Below, piece after piece: positions 40,382 to 55,868 of a stretch of 64,000 nucleotides of DNA. Origin of the DNA: Empedobacter falsenii. GTDB lineage: Bacteria > Bacteroidota > Bacteroidia > Flavobacteriales > Weeksellaceae. A program made the translations under genes and the position numbers. Within the stretch, counting starts at the first letter, position 1. Each line of letters starts with the position of its first letter. The notes under the pieces were generated by a model. It was given only the letters and a program-made list of their open reading frames with translations. It made no database searches and was not told where the DNA came from. The stretch covers positions 372,001 through 436,000 of the forward strand of contig NZ_CP040908.1 of the NCBI RefSeq assembly GCF_013488205.1, written 5' to 3'.

Positions 40382-41257
40382 ATGCTAAACTATTTAAAAC
40401 TTATACGTGTTAACCAATGGGTAAAAAATTTATTTGTTTTTTTACCAATATTTTTTTCGGGAAATTTATTGAATATCGATTTGTTTATTGAGTCGTTTTA
40501 TGGCTTTTTAATTTTTTCTTTTGTCGCGAGTAGTATTTATATTATCAATGATTACGTTGATATTGAAAAAGATAAAAAACATCCCGAAAAGAAAAATAGA
40601 CCACTCGCAAGTGGTAAAATATCGAAGCAAAATGCTTTAATTCTATTTGTTATTTTAGTCATTGTAACATCAATTTTGATTTATTTTTTTGGAAATAAAT
40701 ATGTCGCAATTCTTGTTGGAATTTACTTTTTTATGAATTTGGCTTATTCATTCAAGTTAAAACAAATTGCAATTCTTGATGTGATGATTATTGCGTTTGG
40801 ATTCTTACTAAGAGTTTTTGTTGGTGGTTATATGACCGGAATTTTAGTGACAGATTGGACGATTTTATTGGTTTTTGATTTGGCTCTTATTTTAGCTTTA
40901 GGAAAACGAAGAGGTGAATTAATTAACGCCGATTTACAAGGAATTACAAGAAAATCGTTGGATGGATATAATCTCAATTTTCTTAATTCTGCCTTAGCTA
41001 TAACTTGTACTGTCGCTGTAATTTGTTACATGATGTTTATTCTTTCCCCAGAAACACAATCCAAATTTCATCATTATATTATTTATACTTTTGTCTTTGT
41101 TTTTGCGGCAGTTTTACGTTATTTACAACAGACATTTGTTTTTTCGAAAACAGAATCTCCTACAAAACTAATTTTTAAAGATCATTTTTTACAAATTCTA
41201 ATTATAATGTGGGGAATTTGTTATGTATTATTGATTTATTTTAATCATGGAAAATAA
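40382..41257 (+). CDS. UbiA-family polyprenyl-phosphate phosphoribosyltransferase (DPPR-synthase-like)
   Basis: A 291-residue membrane enzyme with eight or nine helices. It matches mycobacterial 5-phosphoribosyl-1-diphosphate:decaprenyl-phosphate phosphoribosyltransferase (Rv3806c) in order: RVNQWVKNLFVF, the first aspartate motif NDYVDIEKDKKHPEKKNRPLA, NLAYSFKLK, LGKRRGELI, RKSLDGYN and VLRYLQQ. It would join PRPP to polyprenyl phosphate at the inner membrane, the committed step to lipid-linked ribose/arabinose. Its stop overlaps the dprE1-like gene by 11 bases. Confidence 0.88.
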   Translation: MLNYLKLIRVNQWVKNLFVFLPIFFSGNLLNIDLFIESFYGFLIFSFVASSIYIINDYVDIEKDKKHPEKKNRPLASGKISKQNALILFVILVIVTSILIYFFGNKYVAILVGIYFFMNLAYSFKLKQIAILDVMIIAFGFLLRVFVGGYMTGILVTDWTILLVFDLALILALGKRRGELINADLQGITRKSLDGYNLNFLNSALAITCTVAVICYMMFILSPETQSKFHHYIIYTFVFVFAAVLRYLQQTFVFSKTESPTKLIFKDHFLQILIIMWGICYVLLIYFNHGK

Positions 41258-42569
41258 AAAATTATCTCCAGTAGCAAATTGGGGACTTTATCCATCTATA
41301 AAAGCGAATGTTGTATCGCCAACTACAATTTTAGAATTTCAGGAAGCAATTCTTTCAAATGAAGAAGTTATTGCGAGAGGAAATGGTCGTTGTTATGGAG
41401 ATGCATCATTACAAAATACAATTATTTCAACATCGAAATGGAATAAATTTATCGATTTTGATCGCGAACATGGCATTATAGAAGTTGAATCTGGAGTTTT
41501 ATTATCAGATATTTTAGAAGTTTCAATTCCGGCAGGATATTTCATTTCAGTCACTCCTGGAACCAAATTTATTACAGTTGGCGGAGCAATTGCATCAGAT
41601 GTTCATGGAAAAAATCATCACATCGATGGTTGTTTTTCTGATCATTTAATTCATTTCGATTTAATGATTGAAAATGGAGATATTTTACATTGTTCAAGAA
41701 ATGAAAACACAGATTTATTTTGGGCAACAATAGGAGGAATGGGATTGACAGGAATTGTTATTTCTGCTAAATTTATGTTGAAAAAAATTGAGTCAGCATA
41801 TATTCGAAATGAAGCAATTCAGGCGAAGAATTTAGATGAGATTTTTGATTTGTTCGAATCTTCTGAATCTTGGACATATAATGTTGCGTGGTTAGATTGT
41901 TTACAAAAAGGTACTTCCTTAGGAAAATCGATTATGTTGCGTGGCGAACATGCGATTTTAGACGAGTTACCTCAAAAATTCAAAAAGAATCCTTTAAAAA
42001 TTAAGAAGAAATTAAACTTAAATATTCCATTTTTCTTTCCAAATTTTGCGTTAAATCCTTTATCAATTAAGATTTTCAATTGGTTATATTTTAATAAACA
42101 AGGTAAAAAGCATTTGAAAAATTATGTGGATTACGAAACATTTTTTTATCCGTTAGATGCTGTTCATAATTGGAATCGTATTTATGGGAAAAATGGATTT
42201 ATTCAATATCAATTTGTGATTCCAAAGGAGACGGGAAAAGAAGGAATGCGAAAGATTTTGGAAACAATTGCTGCTAGTGGAAATGGTTCTTTTTTAGTAG
42301 TATTGAAATTGTTTGGTGATAATAATCCAAAAGCTTATAATTCGTTTCCAATGAAAGGATACACACTGGCTTTAGACTTTAAAGTAAACAATAAATTAGA
42401 GAAATTAATTGCAAGTTTAGATAAAATTGTGATGGATTATGGAGGACATATTTACCGAACAAAAGACGCGATGTCCAATCCAGCCTTGACAGATTATTTA
42501 CAACATATCGATTCTCCAAAATTCGAGTCGATGCAAAACGAACGTATCAATAGATTTAAGCAAAAATGA
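41247..42569 (+). CDS. dprE1: Decaprenylphosphoryl-ribose 2'-oxidase homologue (DprE1-like)
   Basis: A 440-residue FAD-dependent oxidoreductase. Nearly every DprE1 landmark is seen: ARGNGRCYGDASLQ, VTPGTKFITVGGAIASDVHGKNHH, FWATIGGMGLTGI, AWLDCLQKG, GFIQYQFVIP, VLKLFGDNNP and YRTKDA. K406 matches the essential Lys418 of M. tuberculosis DprE1. At the position of the benzothiazinone-target Cys387 there is A375 (GYTLALDF). It oxidises C2' of polyprenylphosphoryl-ribose, the first half of epimerisation to arabinose. The four-base ATGA overlap with the SDR partner supports coupling. Confidence 0.92.
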   Translation: MENKKLSPVANWGLYPSIKANVVSPTTILEFQEAILSNEEVIARGNGRCYGDASLQNTIISTSKWNKFIDFDREHGIIEVESGVLLSDILEVSIPAGYFISVTPGTKFITVGGAIASDVHGKNHHIDGCFSDHLIHFDLMIENGDILHCSRNENTDLFWATIGGMGLTGIVISAKFMLKKIESAYIRNEAIQAKNLDEIFDLFESSESWTYNVAWLDCLQKGTSLGKSIMLRGEHAILDELPQKFKKNPLKIKKKLNLNIPFFFPNFALNPLSIKIFNWLYFNKQGKKHLKNYVDYETFFYPLDAVHNWNRIYGKNGFIQYQFVIPKETGKEGMRKILETIAASGNGSFLVVLKLFGDNNPKAYNSFPMKGYTLALDFKVNNKLEKLIASLDKIVMDYGGHIYRTKDAMSNPALTDYLQHIDSPKFESMQNERINRFKQK

Positions 42570-43291
42570 TAGTAATAGGATCAAATTCTGATGTAGCAAT
42601 AGCTTTTGTAGAAAAGGTTTTGAAAGAAGGTAAACGTTTTCCGATGGTTTATTTATTTACATCAAACATCGAAAAAACAAAGAAATTAGCACTACATTTT
42701 TATGCAAAATATGAGCAAAAATGCGAGATTGTTCATTTCGATTTAACAAAAGAAAACGATTATTCTTTAATTTCTCATATCGATTCTGAATTATTGTTTT
42801 GTGCAGCTGGATATTTAGGAAAAAATTCGGAAGAAGGTTTATATGATGATTGGAACACGAAACAAATAGTAGAAGTTAATTACTCAAAATTAATTGTCTT
42901 AATTAATCATTTTGCGCAGAAATTCGAAGCAAAAGGTTCGGGAACTATCATTGGATTGTCGTCTGTAGCTGGTGAACGTGGTCGTCAAAGCAATTTTATT
43001 TATGGATCTGCAAAAGCTGGTTTCACAGCTTATTTAGCTGGTTTGAGAAATTATTTATTCCATAAAAAAGTTCATGTAATGACAGTTATTCCAGGATTTA
43101 TGGATACGCAAATGACAGCTGATATTGAAACACCAAAACCATTAACTGCTCAACCAGATCAAGCGGCTAATATTATTTATAAAGCTTATGTCAAAAAGAA
43201 AAATATTGTTTATGTAACATTTTTGTGGTGGGGAATTATGATGATAATTCGTAATGTTCCTGAATTTATTTTCAAAAAAATGAAAATGTAA
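42566..43291 (+). CDS. dprE2: Decaprenylphosphoryl-2-keto-pentose reductase homologue (DprE2-like SDR)
   Basis: A 241-residue short-chain dehydrogenase. Its N-terminus MIVIGSNSDVAIAF is the compact NAD(P) site of DprE2; the active site is SSVAGERGRQSNFIYGSAKAG with Ser, Tyr and Lys. The stretches VIPGFMDTQM, VYVTFLWWGIMMIIRNVPEFIFKKM also match the mycobacterial enzyme, including the C-terminal membrane-associated helix. It reduces the keto intermediate made by DprE1, giving lipid-linked arabinose. Confidence 0.9.
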   Translation: MIVIGSNSDVAIAFVEKVLKEGKRFPMVYLFTSNIEKTKKLALHFYAKYEQKCEIVHFDLTKENDYSLISHIDSELLFCAAGYLGKNSEEGLYDDWNTKQIVEVNYSKLIVLINHFAQKFEAKGSGTIIGLSSVAGERGRQSNFIYGSAKAGFTAYLAGLRNYLFHKKVHVMTVIPGFMDTQMTADIETPKPLTAQPDQAANIIYKAYVKKKNIVYVTFLWWGIMMIIRNVPEFIFKKMKM

Positions 43292-43881
43292 TGAATCGCA
43301 ATTTATACCTTTTTGATTTTGATGGAACATTAACTTGTAAAGATACCTTATTCGATTTTTTAAAATTCTCTTTTCCTAAAGTTTACTTTATTAATTATCT
43401 GATATTTATTCCATTATTTATCGTTTCAAAATTGAAGATAATTGATGCTGGTTTTGTAAAAGAAATGTTTATTTCTAAATTTTTGAAAGGAAAATCTTAT
43501 GTTGAAATTAATCAATTAGCTCAAAATTATTTTGAACAAAATCATCAAGAATTAATTTATTCAAAAGCTGATGAATATATTAAATCGTTAAGTAATTATA
43601 ATGATAAATTTATCGTTTCGGCTTCAGTCGATTTTTGGATTCAACCTTTTGCTGATTATTATGAAATGGGACTAATTTGTACCAAAGCAAAATATGATGA
43701 ACAAGGCTTTTTTACAGGGAAATTTGCTTCACCAAATTGTAATTACCAAGAAAAAAAGAATAGAATCGAGAAAGAAATTGATTTGTCTTTATATGATAAA
43801 ATCATAGCTTTTGGTGACACAAAAGGTGATGAAGCAATGTTTTCGATTGCTACAAAATCTAATTTTAGATATTTTAATTAA
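43291..43881 (+). CDS. HAD-IB phosphatase, candidate polyprenylphosphoryl-5-phosphoribose phosphatase
   Basis: A 196-residue HAD hydrolase of the SerB-like IB group: motif I YLFDFDGTLTCKDTLFDFL, motif II FIVSASVDFW, motif IV IIAFGDTKGDEAMF. It has one-base overlap with the dprE2-like gene. In this pathway the phosphoribosyl-lipid needs dephosphorylation before oxidation, and fused HAD-UbiA proteins exist, so this gene is the natural candidate. The reaction is inferred from context. The two hydrophobic stretches at about 29-51 may help it reach the membrane substrate. Confidence 0.83.
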   Translation: MNRNLYLFDFDGTLTCKDTLFDFLKFSFPKVYFINYLIFIPLFIVSKLKIIDAGFVKEMFISKFLKGKSYVEINQLAQNYFEQNHQELIYSKADEYIKSLSNYNDKFIVSASVDFWIQPFADYYEMGLICTKAKYDEQGFFTGKFASPNCNYQEKKNRIEKEIDLSLYDKIIAFGDTKGDEAMFSIATKSNFRYFN

Positions 43882-49067: not shown

Positions 49068-50186
49068 GTGAGTTTTATTTATTTATTCATATTTGCATTT
49101 CTACTTGTTGCATCTTTTTTAGAGTTTTCTAATAAAAAGGTTAGTAAACAATCATATGTATTAATTGTTGTGATAATGTGTTTAACTGCTGGATTGGGAT
49201 ATGCATTGAGTCCTGATTGGGTAGCATATTTTGATACTTTTAATGCATTGGCTTATGTAAATTGGTCAGAGTTTGGTCGTTTTGCCTATATGGCAGGTAT
49301 GGAGAAAGGATATTTAGGCCTGAATAAAATACTTGTTGATTATGGTTTTGATTTTGGGATGCTTACTTTAATAGTTGCAACAACTTCTCTTATTCTAAAG
49401 ACAACAACTTTCTATAAATACGGAGGATTTCCTTTTTTAGTATTATTTATTTATGCGATGCCGAATTTTATGTTCGAAGAGCATGTACATATTAGGCAAG
49501 GATTAGCAAATGCAATTGCACTTTATTCTATACGTTATGTAATCGATCGTAACCTAATAAAGTTTTTGATTTGTATTACAATTGGATTTCAATTTCATGA
49601 ATCTATAATTGTTTTTTTACTTGCTTATTGGATTGCCCCAATGAAGTTTGATGAAAAATTTATAGGCTGGTTAGTTGTGTTTTCAATTATAGGGTTTTAT
49701 ACAGGTTTAAATTCAATTATAGAAATCATTATGGATTTTATGCCAATTGGTCAAGATAAATTTGAGAGTTATCAAAGTCAGTTATATGATCAAGGTAATG
49801 GTGTAGCAGTAGGTGATTTCGTGAAGATTATTTCAATTCTTTCAATTATTATTTATAATAAATATGCTGTAGAAGATAAATTATATTGTTATTTCCGTAA
49901 TCTTTTTGTTTTTGGAGTTTTATTATACTTTTTTTTAGGAAAAGGAATTTTTGGTGTTAGATTACCTGGATTTTATTTAGTTTTCTTAGGGCTTGCAGTT
50001 GGTAGATTAGTATATGTATTTGATGGGGATAAATTTAAAAGAAATTTTATTTATTTGAGTTTTGTGTCTTATACTGTATTATTGATTTTTTGGTTTCAAA
50101 TAAAGCAAGCACATAAATCAAATTTCTCAAATTATAGAACAGTTTTTAATAAAGAAGCGGTTTACGGGCTATGGAAATGGAATTAA
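49068..50186 (+). CDS. EpsG-family polysaccharide polymerase (Wzy-like)
   Basis: A 372-residue membrane protein with about ten helices. The EpsG layout is seen: an N-terminal helix, a SPDWVAYFDTFN loop, then FVLFIYAMPNFMFEEHVHIRQGLANAIALYSIRY, where the arginine near the fifth helix is typical of the family, followed by GFQFHESIIVFLLAYW. It would polymerise repeat units in the periplasm. GTG start at 49068, directly after the GT2 gene. It is the only polymerase candidate seen in the window. Confidence 0.85.
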   Translation: MSFIYLFIFAFLLVASFLEFSNKKVSKQSYVLIVVIMCLTAGLGYALSPDWVAYFDTFNALAYVNWSEFGRFAYMAGMEKGYLGLNKILVDYGFDFGMLTLIVATTSLILKTTTFYKYGGFPFLVLFIYAMPNFMFEEHVHIRQGLANAIALYSIRYVIDRNLIKFLICITIGFQFHESIIVFLLAYWIAPMKFDEKFIGWLVVFSIIGFYTGLNSIIEIIMDFMPIGQDKFESYQSQLYDQGNGVAVGDFVKIISILSIIIYNKYAVEDKLYCYFRNLFVFGVLLYFFLGKGIFGVRLPGFYLVFLGLAVGRLVYVFDGDKFKRNFIYLSFVSYTVLLIFWFQIKQAHKSNFSNYRTVFNKEAVYGLWKWN

Positions 50187-52015: not shown

Positions 52016-52801
52016 ATGCTTAACTTAAAATCAACTTTAACCAAAACTTTTATTTTGTTGATAATCATGAATTTGTTTTCATGTATATCTTTAAAAGATG
52101 TTCAACTAATTCAGCCAGATCCTAATTTAAAATTAGATGCAAATGGTAAGATTTCTTTTGAAAAACCTGAATATCATATTCAAAAAAATGATCAAATTTT
52201 AATTAATATTTCGTCTGCTGCAGGAGCTTCTATGGGAATTCTTAGTGATTTTATTACTTCAGGTAATAATACTCAAGGAGGAAATGGAGTGTATGTAAGA
52301 CAAGACGGAGCAATTGAGTTACCTCGTATTGGGAAAATAAAATTAGAAGGTCTTACTATTGAACAAGCTCGAAAGAAAATTCAAGATGAGTTCTATAAAA
52401 TCTACGATGAAAAGGGAACTTTTATCGATGTTAATTTAGCGGGAATAGAATATACTATTGTAGGAGAAGCAAGTCAAGGAGTTTTTAGAGCGCCTAAAAA
52501 GAATATAACGTTACTAGATGCTTTTGCCCAATCAGGAACGAATAATATCTATGCTGATTTAAAAAATGTACGAATTATTAGAACAGATTTAGATGGGACA
52601 AAGCAGGTATATGTCGATTTAACAAAAGAATCTATTATGAATTCTGAGTATTATTGGATTCAGAATAATGATATTATTGTTGTTAATCCTCGTAAAGAAA
52701 AAGTATGGGGTGTAGGACTAAATCCTCTTACTGTTGTTACTACTGTAATGGGAGCAATTGCAACAATTTTAGGAGTTTATTTATTCTTTGATAAAATATA
52801 A
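52016..52801 (+). CDS. Wza-like outer-membrane polysaccharide export lipoprotein
   Basis: A 261-residue lipoprotein with a signal peptide ending at C23 (LFSC). The polysaccharide-export domain starts near 54 (YHIQKNDQILINISS), with QDGAIELPRIGKIKLEGLTIEQA, and is followed by an SLBB-type repeat (YTIVGEASQGVFRAPKK). A C-terminal hydrophobic helix (about 232-258) gives the outer-membrane pore region of the Wza type. It is followed two bases later by the Wzc-like kinase, as usual. Confidence 0.93.
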   Translation: MLNLKSTLTKTFILLIIMNLFSCISLKDVQLIQPDPNLKLDANGKISFEKPEYHIQKNDQILINISSAAGASMGILSDFITSGNNTQGGNGVYVRQDGAIELPRIGKIKLEGLTIEQARKKIQDEFYKIYDEKGTFIDVNLAGIEYTIVGEASQGVFRAPKKNITLLDAFAQSGTNNIYADLKNVRIIRTDLDGTKQVYVDLTKESIMNSEYYWIQNNDIIVVNPRKEKVWGVGLNPLTVVTTVMGAIATILGVYLFFDKI

Positions 52802-52803
52802 TA

Positions 52804-55287
52804 ATGGCAGATACAACAATTAATCAAAAAGTTAAGAAAAAACAATCTGACTTTATTGATGTAGAAAGGCTTATACCAAGATTATTGAATGCTTGGCCAT
52901 TATATATAATTTCGATGCTAATTGCGTTGGCGGTAGCATATTATCTTAATAATTGGAAGCTGAACAAAATTTATACAGCAAATACAACATTTAAAATTAA
53001 AGATAATAGTTCTGCTAATAATTCATTAGCCTCTAATTCTATTAACTTTATTTGGGGAGGAAATGCAAATAAAATTGATGGGTTAACGTATACATTAACT
53101 TCTCGTATTCATAATGAGAAAGTTGTAAAAAGAGCAGAATCTTATATATTCTATACAGAAGAAGGACGTTTAAAAAAATCTAATATATATAAATTAGATG
53201 CTCCTTTTCATGTTCATATTGATACATTACATCAACAAGTTGCATATGTTGATGTAAAAGTAAAACCTAAAGATCATAACTCTTTTTATTTTGAAGTTGA
53301 GAACAAAAATGGTTCTTTATATCAGTTTACTAAAGATAGTATTATAAAGTCTGACGAGTTGAATTTACCTAAGATTGGTTATTATAATCAATGGATGGTA
53401 GGTAAAAACTATAAAATCATGTTGACTCGTTCAAATGTACCATTTTCTGAAAGCTCAATATCATTTAAATTAGTCACAATCAAAGATGCAACAGGAAGAG
53501 CTGTACAGAATTTTAGTGTTACAAATCCATCTAAAATTTCAAGTATAATAGCTGTTTCAAAAAATGCTGAAAGTTTGAATGAAGCAGTTGATATTTTAAA
53601 TAATTCAATTCAAGTTTTAATAGAAAATGAATTAGCAGAAAGAAATTTATCAGCCTACCAAACACGTAAATATTTACAAGAACGAATTGCAGCTGTAAAG
53701 CTTAAGCTAGATAGCGCAACAAACAATTTACAAGAGTTACAGAAGAAAACTGGAGTTTATAATTTCGACACAAAGAAAGGCGAGCTTTTAAGTAAACTTA
53801 CAGAATTAGATAAAGAACGCGTAACTGTAGAAGAGAAAATCAATGCATTACATCGTTTAATGCCTAAAAAATCGAGTAGTGTTGATAATTTAATCGCTCT
53901 TAATATTGCTGGTCTTGATGTGTCTTATTACATGACGAATGTAGATCAATTAGAAGGTCTTGAAAATCAGCGCGAGCAAATGCTAAAAGTTTATAAAGCA
54001 AATACTGATGAGATTAGAGAAATTGATCGTCGATTAGCTAAAACAAGAAATAATATTTCGAATGTAGTTAATGCACATTTACAAAAGCTGAATACAGATC
54101 TATCTATGATTAACGCTAAGTTAACGGAATCTGAATTCAAAGCGAAAGATTTACCTTATGAAGAAATTGAATTTGTTGAAGCGAATCGTGGATTTGAATT
54201 GAATAGTACATTGTATTCAACTTTAATTAATCAATTAAATACAACTGATTTATCTTTAGCATCTATCGTATCTGATATCACAATTATTGATCCAGCTAAA
54301 AATCAAGGTCAAGGTTCTATTTATCCAAATCCGCAGCGTAATTATTTAATAGCTTTGGGAATTGGTTTATTGATTCCTTTGATTTATGTAGTGATTAAAG
54401 AATTATTAGATTTCAAAGTTCGTGTATTAAAAGATATTACAAGTCGTACGAATATTCCAATTATTGGTTTAGTTGGTCCATTAGGAGATAATTCGCCTTT
54501 AGTTGTAATCAATAATCCAAAATCAGGAATTTCAGAATCGTTTAGATCAATTCGTTCTAATCTAAAATATTTATATAAGAATCCAGGACTTGAAGAACAT
54601 AATAAAACGATTTTAGTAACTTCATTTATTGGAGGTGAAGGAAAGACTTTCAACGCGATGAATATTGCGAGTTCAATCGGTTCTATGGATAAGAAAACGG
54701 TTCTGATTGGATTAGATTTACGTAAACCAAAAATATTTGATGATTTTAACATCAATAATAAAACAGGTGTTACAGACTATGTTGCGGGTGATTTAGAATT
54801 AAATCAAATTACGCAACGTACAATTTTACCAAATTTAGATATTATTACAGCAGGTCCAATTCCTCCAAATCCTTCAGAATTGATTTTAAGTAAACGAATG
54901 GATCAATTATTTGCTGAATTGAAAGAGAAATATGAATTTGTAATTATAGATTCACCACCGATTGGTTTGGTAACAGATTCGTACGATTTGATGCGTTATG
55001 CAGATTGTACATTGTATGTAACTCGCTACAATTATTCGGAGAAAAACTTTATCAATGCGATTTCTAATAAATATGATGAAGGTGAAGTTTCGAATGTCGG
55101 AATTATATTCAACGATTTCCAAATTAAAACTGGCTACGGTTATGGTTATGGCTACGGCTATGGCTACGGCTATGGCTACGGTTATGGTTATGGCTACGGT
55201 TATTTTTCTGGAGATGAGAATTTTGATAATTCATCGTTTGGAAAAATAAAACGTTTAGCTTCTCGAATTAAAGGTAAATTCTTTTAA
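52804..55287 (+). CDS. Wzc-like polysaccharide co-polymerase and tyrosine kinase with a Gly-Tyr repeat tail
   Basis: An 827-residue inner-membrane protein. The N-terminal Wzz domain is anchored by helices at about 31-50 and 514-535 with a large periplasmic coiled-coil part between. The cytosolic BY-kinase has Walker A FIGGEGKT (K614), the A' motif LDLRKP and Walker B FVIIDSPP. Residues 777-800 are twelve Gly-Tyr dipeptides, the autophosphorylation cluster, coded by a six-base tandem repeat. The kinase controls chain length and export together with the Wza-like lipoprotein. Confidence 0.95.
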   Translation: MADTTINQKVKKKQSDFIDVERLIPRLLNAWPLYIISMLIALAVAYYLNNWKLNKIYTANTTFKIKDNSSANNSLASNSINFIWGGNANKIDGLTYTLTSRIHNEKVVKRAESYIFYTEEGRLKKSNIYKLDAPFHVHIDTLHQQVAYVDVKVKPKDHNSFYFEVENKNGSLYQFTKDSIIKSDELNLPKIGYYNQWMVGKNYKIMLTRSNVPFSESSISFKLVTIKDATGRAVQNFSVTNPSKISSIIAVSKNAESLNEAVDILNNSIQVLIENELAERNLSAYQTRKYLQERIAAVKLKLDSATNNLQELQKKTGVYNFDTKKGELLSKLTELDKERVTVEEKINALHRLMPKKSSSVDNLIALNIAGLDVSYYMTNVDQLEGLENQREQMLKVYKANTDEIREIDRRLAKTRNNISNVVNAHLQKLNTDLSMINAKLTESEFKAKDLPYEEIEFVEANRGFELNSTLYSTLINQLNTTDLSLASIVSDITIIDPAKNQGQGSIYPNPQRNYLIALGIGLLIPLIYVVIKELLDFKVRVLKDITSRTNIPIIGLVGPLGDNSPLVVINNPKSGISESFRSIRSNLKYLYKNPGLEEHNKTILVTSFIGGEGKTFNAMNIASSIGSMDKKTVLIGLDLRKPKIFDDFNINNKTGVTDYVAGDLELNQITQRTILPNLDIITAGPIPPNPSELILSKRMDQLFAELKEKYEFVIIDSPPIGLVTDSYDLMRYADCTLYVTRYNYSEKNFINAISNKYDEGEVSNVGIIFNDFQIKTGYGYGYGYGYGYGYGYGYGYGYGYFSGDENFDNSSFGKIKRLASRIKGKFF
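55132..55203 (+). repeat. Twelve-copy hexanucleotide tandem repeat (GGYTAY) inside the Wzc tail
   Basis: Twelve in-frame units of ggc/ggt plus tac/tat follow each other without interruption, encoding (Gly-Tyr)12. The unit is six bases, so gain or loss of copies changes tyrosine number without a frameshift. Third bases alternate in a non-random way. Confidence 0.95.
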
Positions 55288-55292
55288 TTGAA

Positions 55293-55868
55293 ATGATCTT
55301 AAAGAACATATTTGATTATATACTTGCATTAATCCTACTAATATTTTTAGTGGGATTAATTGTTTTGTTAATTATCATAAGTTCTATAGATACCAATCAA
55401 TTTGGCGTTTTTACACAGAAAAGAGTAGGGAAGAATGGAAGGTTTTTCAAGATTTATAAAATTAGAACGATTAAAGGAATTTCTAAATCGACAATAACAA
55501 CCAATCAACATCAAATTACCAAAATTGGAAAGATTCTTAGAGATTATAAATTAGATGAATTACCTCAATTATTCAATATTCTAAAAGGAGAAATGAGTTT
55601 TGTTGGTCCTCGACCTGATGTCGCTGGTTATGCGGATAAATTGATTGGAGAAGATAGATTGATGTTGAAAGTTAAACCAGGAATAACTGGTCCAGCTCAA
55701 TTAAAATATAGAAATGAGGATGAAGTTTTGTCTAATGTAGAAGATCCAATCCAATATAATGATGAAATTCTTTGGCCAGATAAAGTCAAAATTAATGTAG
55801 AATATGTAAAGAATTGGAGTTTTCGACAAGATTTGATTTACATGTTTCAAACAATATTCAAAAAATAA
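55293..55868 (+). CDS. Short polyprenyl-phosphate sugar-1-phosphate transferase (PglC-like)
   Basis: A 191-residue monotopic phosphoglycosyltransferase. An N-terminal hydrophobic re-entrant helix (about 6-28) precedes the catalytic domain: GVFTQKRVGKNGRFFKIYKIRT, LRDYKLDELPQLFNILKGEMSFVGPRP with the DE active-site pair, and KPGITGPAQLKYRN. It lacks the large Rossmann part of WcaJ. It could initiate the repeat unit with a UDP-sugar. It is the last gene of locus 2, followed at once by a terminator. Confidence 0.92.
   Translation: MILKNIFDYILALILLIFLVGLIVLLIIISSIDTNQFGVFTQKRVGKNGRFFKIYKIRTIKGISKSTITTNQHQITKIGKILRDYKLDELPQLFNILKGEMSFVGPRPDVAGYADKLIGEDRLMLKVKPGITGPAQLKYRNEDEVLSNVEDPIQYNDEILWPDKVKINVEYVKNWSFRQDLIYMFQTIFKK

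Follow-up and report, generated by a model that had tools for sequence, protein, structure and literature searches.

A conserved glycine-tyrosine tail with an unexpected anti-microsatellite codon pattern in a Wzc-type kinase of Empedobacter falsenii

The window, that is, the whole stretch of 64,000 nucleotides of Empedobacter falsenii DNA analyzed here (contig NZ_CP040908.1, positions 372,001 to 436,000), contains a polysaccharide locus in which the gene for a Wzc-type kinase is flanked by genes for a Wza-like outer-membrane export protein and a sugar transferase (Table 1). The EpsG-family membrane protein encoded upstream is probably a Wzy-like polymerase. Within the same locus, positions 40382-43881 hold consecutive genes for a UbiA prenyltransferase, an FAD-binding oxidase, a short-chain dehydrogenase, and an HAD phosphatase, a row that we take to resemble the decaprenyl-phosphoryl-arabinose set. 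The kinase ORF scored 146.5 bits against the NCBIfam model TIGR01007 for polysaccharide biosynthesis tyrosine autokinases, above the cut-off of 108.05, which places the protein in the PCP-2/BY-kinase (Wzc) family. The equivalog model of Escherichia coli Wzc gave a score of 162, well below the 1068 needed, and the protein is thus not of the E. coli ortholog type. The first-pass annotation is supported in this respect: the tract is the tyrosine tail at the C terminus of a Wzc-family kinase, and the gene belongs to a capsule/EPS locus.

The kinase possesses a GNVR domain at residues 458-533 (Pfam), and Wzc, Etk, and CapAB are the closest solved structures to its modelled kinase domain (295 aa; mean pLDDT of 66 with 13 sequences as input). 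As judged from the curated model and the predicted fold, the protein is a BY-kinase homologue. The Walker A lysine and the Walker B aspartate are invariant in all 19 aligned relatives, and the ExxRxxR interface motif is present as ESFRSIR, in which E14, R17, and R20 are likewise invariant across 19 sequences. A strict DxD Walker A' motif is missing; its second aspartate is retained, whereas the first, which is aspartate in E. coli Wzc, Etk, and CapAB, is glycine in 19 of the 19 flavobacterial kinases compared. Because of this replacement the kinase activity is uncertain, and the protein is not described here as a canonical active BY-kinase.

Table 1. Coordinates of the kinase gene, its motifs and tail, and neighboring genes in the window.
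Feature	Position	Strand	Basis
EpsG-family membrane protein, upstream	49068..50186	+	PF14897, E 3.6e-48
Wza-like polysaccharide export protein of the outer membrane, 2 bp before kinase gene	52016..52801	+	PF02563, E 3.7e-14
Wzc-type polysaccharide co-polymerase / BY-kinase, 827 aa	52804..55287	+	Pfam AAA_31 and GNVR; TIGR01007; closest structures
Walker A GGEGKT, catalytic Lys614, aligned to K540 of E. coli K30 Wzc	54631..54648	+	
Walker A' first-Asp position occupied by Gly, kinase residue 636	54709..54711	+	alignment
Walker B region DSPP, Asp716, aligned to D642 of E. coli K30 Wzc	54949..54960	+	
(GGYTAY)12 encoding (Gly-Tyr)12 tail, residues 777-800, in frame	55132..55203	+	sequence; conserved in relatives
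Units 1-4, first copy of exact 24-bp direct repeat within tract	55132..55155	+	
Units 8-11, exact direct repeat of units 1-4 (24 bp, offset 42 bp)	55174..55197	+	
Post-tract C-terminal extension, 27 aa, acidic FSGDE, then basic helix	55204..55284	+	sequence; helix predicted
Bacterial sugar transferase, directly downstream of kinase gene	55293..55868	+	PF02397, E 2.1e-51

The C-terminal tyrosine cluster of the kinase comprises 12 tyrosines within residues 778-800 and is followed by the extension, whose predicted helix covers residues 279-294 of the model. Twelve uninterrupted GGYTAY units encoding (Gly-Tyr)12 had been described here; this description stands for the peptide and for the GGYTAY pattern, a run of which has a chance of ~3e-38 per site under the base composition of the window, but not for the DNA unit, since perfect hexamer runs extend over two units at most. 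The third bases of the 12 units read cc tt tt cc ct cc ct cc tt tt cc tt in order, and Tandem Repeats Finder gives a period of 6 with 80% matches. Simple-sequence contingency loci are phase-variable bacterial microsatellites, and the tract resembles them in its short in-frame tandem unit and its position in a surface-polysaccharide gene. It differs from them in that its perfect runs do not exceed two units, so that a long perfect short tandem repeat is absent, and in that neighboring units are dissimilar across the family. Only two loci in the genome contain at least four GGNTAY units. One is this tract; the other belongs to a further, divergent kinase (C1:3539953-3542280, L304), whose own (GY)6 tail is written with GGA/GGG codons.

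The tail is not peculiar to the strain studied, as 14 of 14 genomes searched in the genus carry it at the same place, with 8-12 units. At the family level, 265 of 296 genomes gave a kinase match at E up to 1e-55, and 158 loci (156 unique) were taken from these matches, with G411, whose contig ends by the tail, left out. At least three xY units were present in 155 of the 156 unique loci, L185 having (GY)2 only; this 155-locus set takes in three loci (L008, L225, and L294) from outside the first motif filter. Run lengths in the set lie mostly between 7 and 10, with 3 units in 3 loci, 5 in 1, 7 in 22, 8 in 52, 9 in 47, 10 in 16, 11 in 6, and 12 in 8. The (xY)n pattern continues unbroken up to a Phe-acidic anchor in 152 loci, the three exceptions being L023, with a TAG within the tract, and L169 and L171, with broken patterns. 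Tyrosine is kept at all 1320 regular every-second-residue positions, and the spacer residue x at these 1320 positions is Gly in 1308 cases, Ser in 8, Asp in 2, Asn in 1, and Glu in 1. The segment after the tract is 25-27 aa long in 144 of 152 family proteins. In L023 (G018:C114), few tyrosines precede the stop codon, and the genome is 79% complete, so that an assembly error is possible.

A query with the tail-less kinase retrieved 80 named loci, mostly from Chryseobacterium and Flavobacteriaceae. None of the 80 has fewer than three YxY steps, and their pure GY runs span 2-14 units; GY runs reach up to 15 within the order. In a sample of the phylum, (GGNTAY)6 was found in 44 of 296 genomes as 49 distinct tracts, of which 47 have a Walker A motif upstream and 45 a PNP motif too, while one of the two tracts lacking Walker A is a contig-edge fragment. 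The peptide is therefore a conserved tail of roughly fixed length that drifts by one or two units between species. No report of a (GY)n kinase tail was found among the papers listed in searches of the open-access literature.

The DNA that encodes this peptide is codon-scrambled and is not a plain microsatellite. It forms a mosaic of synonymous codons that is distinct in every species of the genus except for the pair L011/L012. In a set of 105 tracts, one per cluster, neighboring hexamers were identical at 73 of 821 places against 140.1 after shuffling of units (z -6.9), about half of the expectation, and 54 of the tracts had no identical neighbors at all. The depletion was replicated in 48 named tracts outside this set (55 of 333 places against 77.2, z -3.5), four of which contain perfect runs of 5-7 units. 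At lags of two and three units, identity within the tract exceeds the expectation, and three-unit words are repeated 26 times against 9.1 expected, which points to past duplications of 12 and 18 bp. Slippage alone should homogenize neighboring units, and the depletion of identical neighbors thus implies either that the loss of perfect duplicates outpaces their formation or that selection acts against them. The pattern may reflect the removal of slippage-prone perfect repeats, through selection or through their own instability, by which the unit number n would be held roughly constant; the synonymous sites would then record the protection of a repeat peptide from slippage. A precedent exists in the choice of codons against mononucleotide repeats (Ackermann and Chao 2006, PMC1378130, in its accessible text), which is alike in that synonymous choice acts against replication-unstable repeats and different in that the repeat considered here is a hexanucleotide within a conserved repetitive peptide.

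Alternatively, the alternation could be an effect of translation, in which tRNA demand or codon-pair preference is spread over the 24 Gly/Tyr codons and slippage is irrelevant. Codon use in the tract indeed differs from that in the rest of the same genes (GGC 35% versus 9%, TAC 41% versus 22%), and a weak depletion is also seen outside the tract, where same-amino-acid codons two apart were identical 2013 times against 2120 expected, only 5% fewer. On the other hand, Tyr and Gly codons alternate equally strongly (z -8.3 each), which makes a translational cause less likely, since a single tRNA should decode TAT as well as TAC. A first-order codon-context (Markov) simulation predicted 129.0 identical neighbors where 73 were seen (z -5.3), by which Gly/Tyr codon pairing was ruled out as the cause of the alternation, and several tails of a contrasting group of relatives (f31, below) keep one codon pair throughout. 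We consider a translational origin unlikely.

Changes in unit number were examined in 26 independent pairs of close relatives, whose flanks showed a third-position identity of 0.72-0.99; n was equal in 17 pairs, one apart in 7, and two apart in 2. The first-pass annotation had proposed that the tail changes by whole GY units without a frameshift, and this agrees with the nine differing pairs and with the closest pair, L011/L012, in which gene DNA 99.7% identical differs by exactly one GGCTAC. It had further proposed that slippage changes n as a means of tuning capsule length; on this view, the tract would be a contingency locus at which polymerase slippage changes n often within a strain and so tunes chain length. 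The extra GGCTAC of L011/L012 lies inside a 'cc cc' pair and adjoins an identical unit, exactly where slippage would act. The 450 codons of the tract showed 9 indel events and the 12480 codon columns of the flanks 4, a ~62-fold difference per codon (Fisher p 4e-11), which was counted with at most one event per pair and is not a pure mutation rate, as tail and folded domain differ in indel tolerance. Perfect runs of 5-9 units are moreover present in seven of nine f31 tracts, themselves selected by pattern. Against these observations stand the two-unit limit on perfect runs in the window, the family-wide depletion of identical neighbors, and the phylogenetic signal of n, which required 60 changes on the gene tree versus 85.1 when shuffled (never below 78 in 100 rounds). 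Three pairs exceed 0.95 in flank third-position identity; n differs in one of them, and in the other two both n and every third base of the tract agree. Between-species comparisons gave no sign of fast toggling of n. A slippage-prone tuning locus is consequently not supported for this species and is rather improbable as the general reading; none of the observations calls for slippage tuning within a strain, and n shifts in whole-unit steps on the time scale of species.

Fast turnover of the tract as a general rule was considered and rejected. The window tract looked reshuffled relative to its closest relative, L008, with third positions identical at 10 of 20 places versus 37 of 43 in flanking Gly/Tyr codons (Fisher p 0.004), or 35% versus 60 of 68 under a simpler one-gap alignment, but with the 26 pairs pooled, the divergence of third positions in the tract did not significantly exceed that of the flanking Gly/Tyr codons (0.755 versus 0.80, p 0.13).

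A possible role for the tail is provided by E. coli K30 Wzc. According to the accessible text of PMC11986026 and PMC8285477, the tail of that protein enters the active site of a neighboring subunit, where Tyr i is phosphorylated with Tyr i-2 in a pocket; phosphorylation proceeds from C to N, about four phosphates break the octamer, and the extent of phosphorylation counts rather than any particular tyrosine. A review, as far as its text is accessible, associates less tail phosphorylation with longer or more uniform chains (PMC12220298), and published work links the level of tail phosphorylation to chain length (PMC12220298, PMC11986026), in line with the earlier statement that the phosphorylation level sets polymer length. 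The (GY)n tail is an unbroken series of YxY steps; by analogy with the mechanism put forward for E. coli Wzc, a neighboring subunit would phosphorylate each tyrosine while the tyrosine two residues before it is kept in position. The number n would then set how many phosphates the tail can take, and the tail would regulate the capsule/EPS pathway through the Wzc-family co-polymerase. As such, (GY)n is the simplest tail for a YxY ratchet, with which the conservation of tyrosine together with a relaxed n is consistent.

The kinase shares with E. coli K30 Wzc (PCP-2a, 7nhr) the kinase fold, Walker A and B, a YxY C-terminal tyrosine tail, and an adjoining Wza-like gene. In contrast, E. coli K30 Wzc has about five phosphorylated tyrosines with a break at N711, where 12 unbroken GY steps are found here, and its tail nearly ends the protein, where 27 aa (25-27 in most family members) follow the tract here. 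The pocket residues of the E. coli enzyme are not kept in the 19 relatives (P536 is G/S, L647 is G/V, E675 is M/F/L, and S679 is I/V), so that identical chemistry in the pocket is not to be presumed, and together with the glycine at the first Walker A' position, which is Asp in E. coli, this makes the ratchet an analogy drawn from the YxY spacing only. Porphyromonas gingivalis Ptk1 (PGN_1524), an active BY-kinase, is comparable by description as a Bacteroidota protein with a wza-wzc type locus and a C-terminal tyrosine cluster, and the accessible text of PMC4082711 and PMC8787120 does not mention a GY repeat. A wzb-like gene adjoins that locus (PMC3684754, accessible text), whereas the single LMW-PTP of the genome studied here is unlinked to the kinase locus. 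No CpsB-type phosphatase scored above threshold in this genome, and a phosphatase partner for the kinase is possible.

It is very unlikely that the tail is an unphosphorylated structural or adhesive low-complexity segment, a reading with which its probable disorder (pLDDT ~30 in the model) and the replaced Walker A' aspartate would agree, because its position matches the Y-tail of solved BY-kinases, the Walker A lysine, Walker B aspartate, and ExxRxxR are invariant, Tyr and not merely an aromatic residue occupies the 1320 regular positions, and other BY-kinase lineages carry the same motif. The tract is quite likely to be the autophosphorylation tail of a Wzc-family co-polymerase in a capsule/EPS pathway, with (GY)n as a YxY ratchet encoded by codon-scrambled DNA. 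This conserved version of the tyrosine tail of Wzc bears on the number of tail phosphates that a Wzc-type kinase requires and on whether that number determines polymer length. With natural lengths of 2 to 15 identical YxY units, it offers a ready series of variants in which the ratchet model can be examined.

The group f31, presumably Bacteroidales, contrasts with the codon-scrambled tracts. In its nine tracts, which were chosen by a pattern needing six units, adjacent units were identical at 51 of 74 places versus 49 of 237 in 38 other tracts, the longest perfect runs were 9, 8, 9, 9, 5, 6, 6, 2, and 1 units, and perfect (GGCTAT)8-9 occurs in some of these Bacteroidales-like relatives. A tail-less search of the f31 genus (65 genomes) found this paralog in only 8. 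If the slippage mechanism of the first-pass annotation operates anywhere in the phylum, f31 is the place to look, and slippage tuning in these Bacteroidales-like relatives with perfect repeats is plausible. We tentatively suggest, as a possibility short of the expected outcome, that the codon-scrambled repeat, in which synonymous codons break up the hexanucleotide, holds the number of ratchet steps within narrow limits, whereas slippage on the perfect (GGCTAT)n or (GGGTAT)n of some Bacteroidales-like relatives could change capsule length. One device would in that case exist in the phylum in a 'locked' and a 'tunable' version. In L332 (G199:C74), one of the relatives from the tail-less search of the f31 genus, GY and GN steps alternate and are written almost wholly as GGCTAT/GGCAAT, with Tyr replaced in place by Asn.
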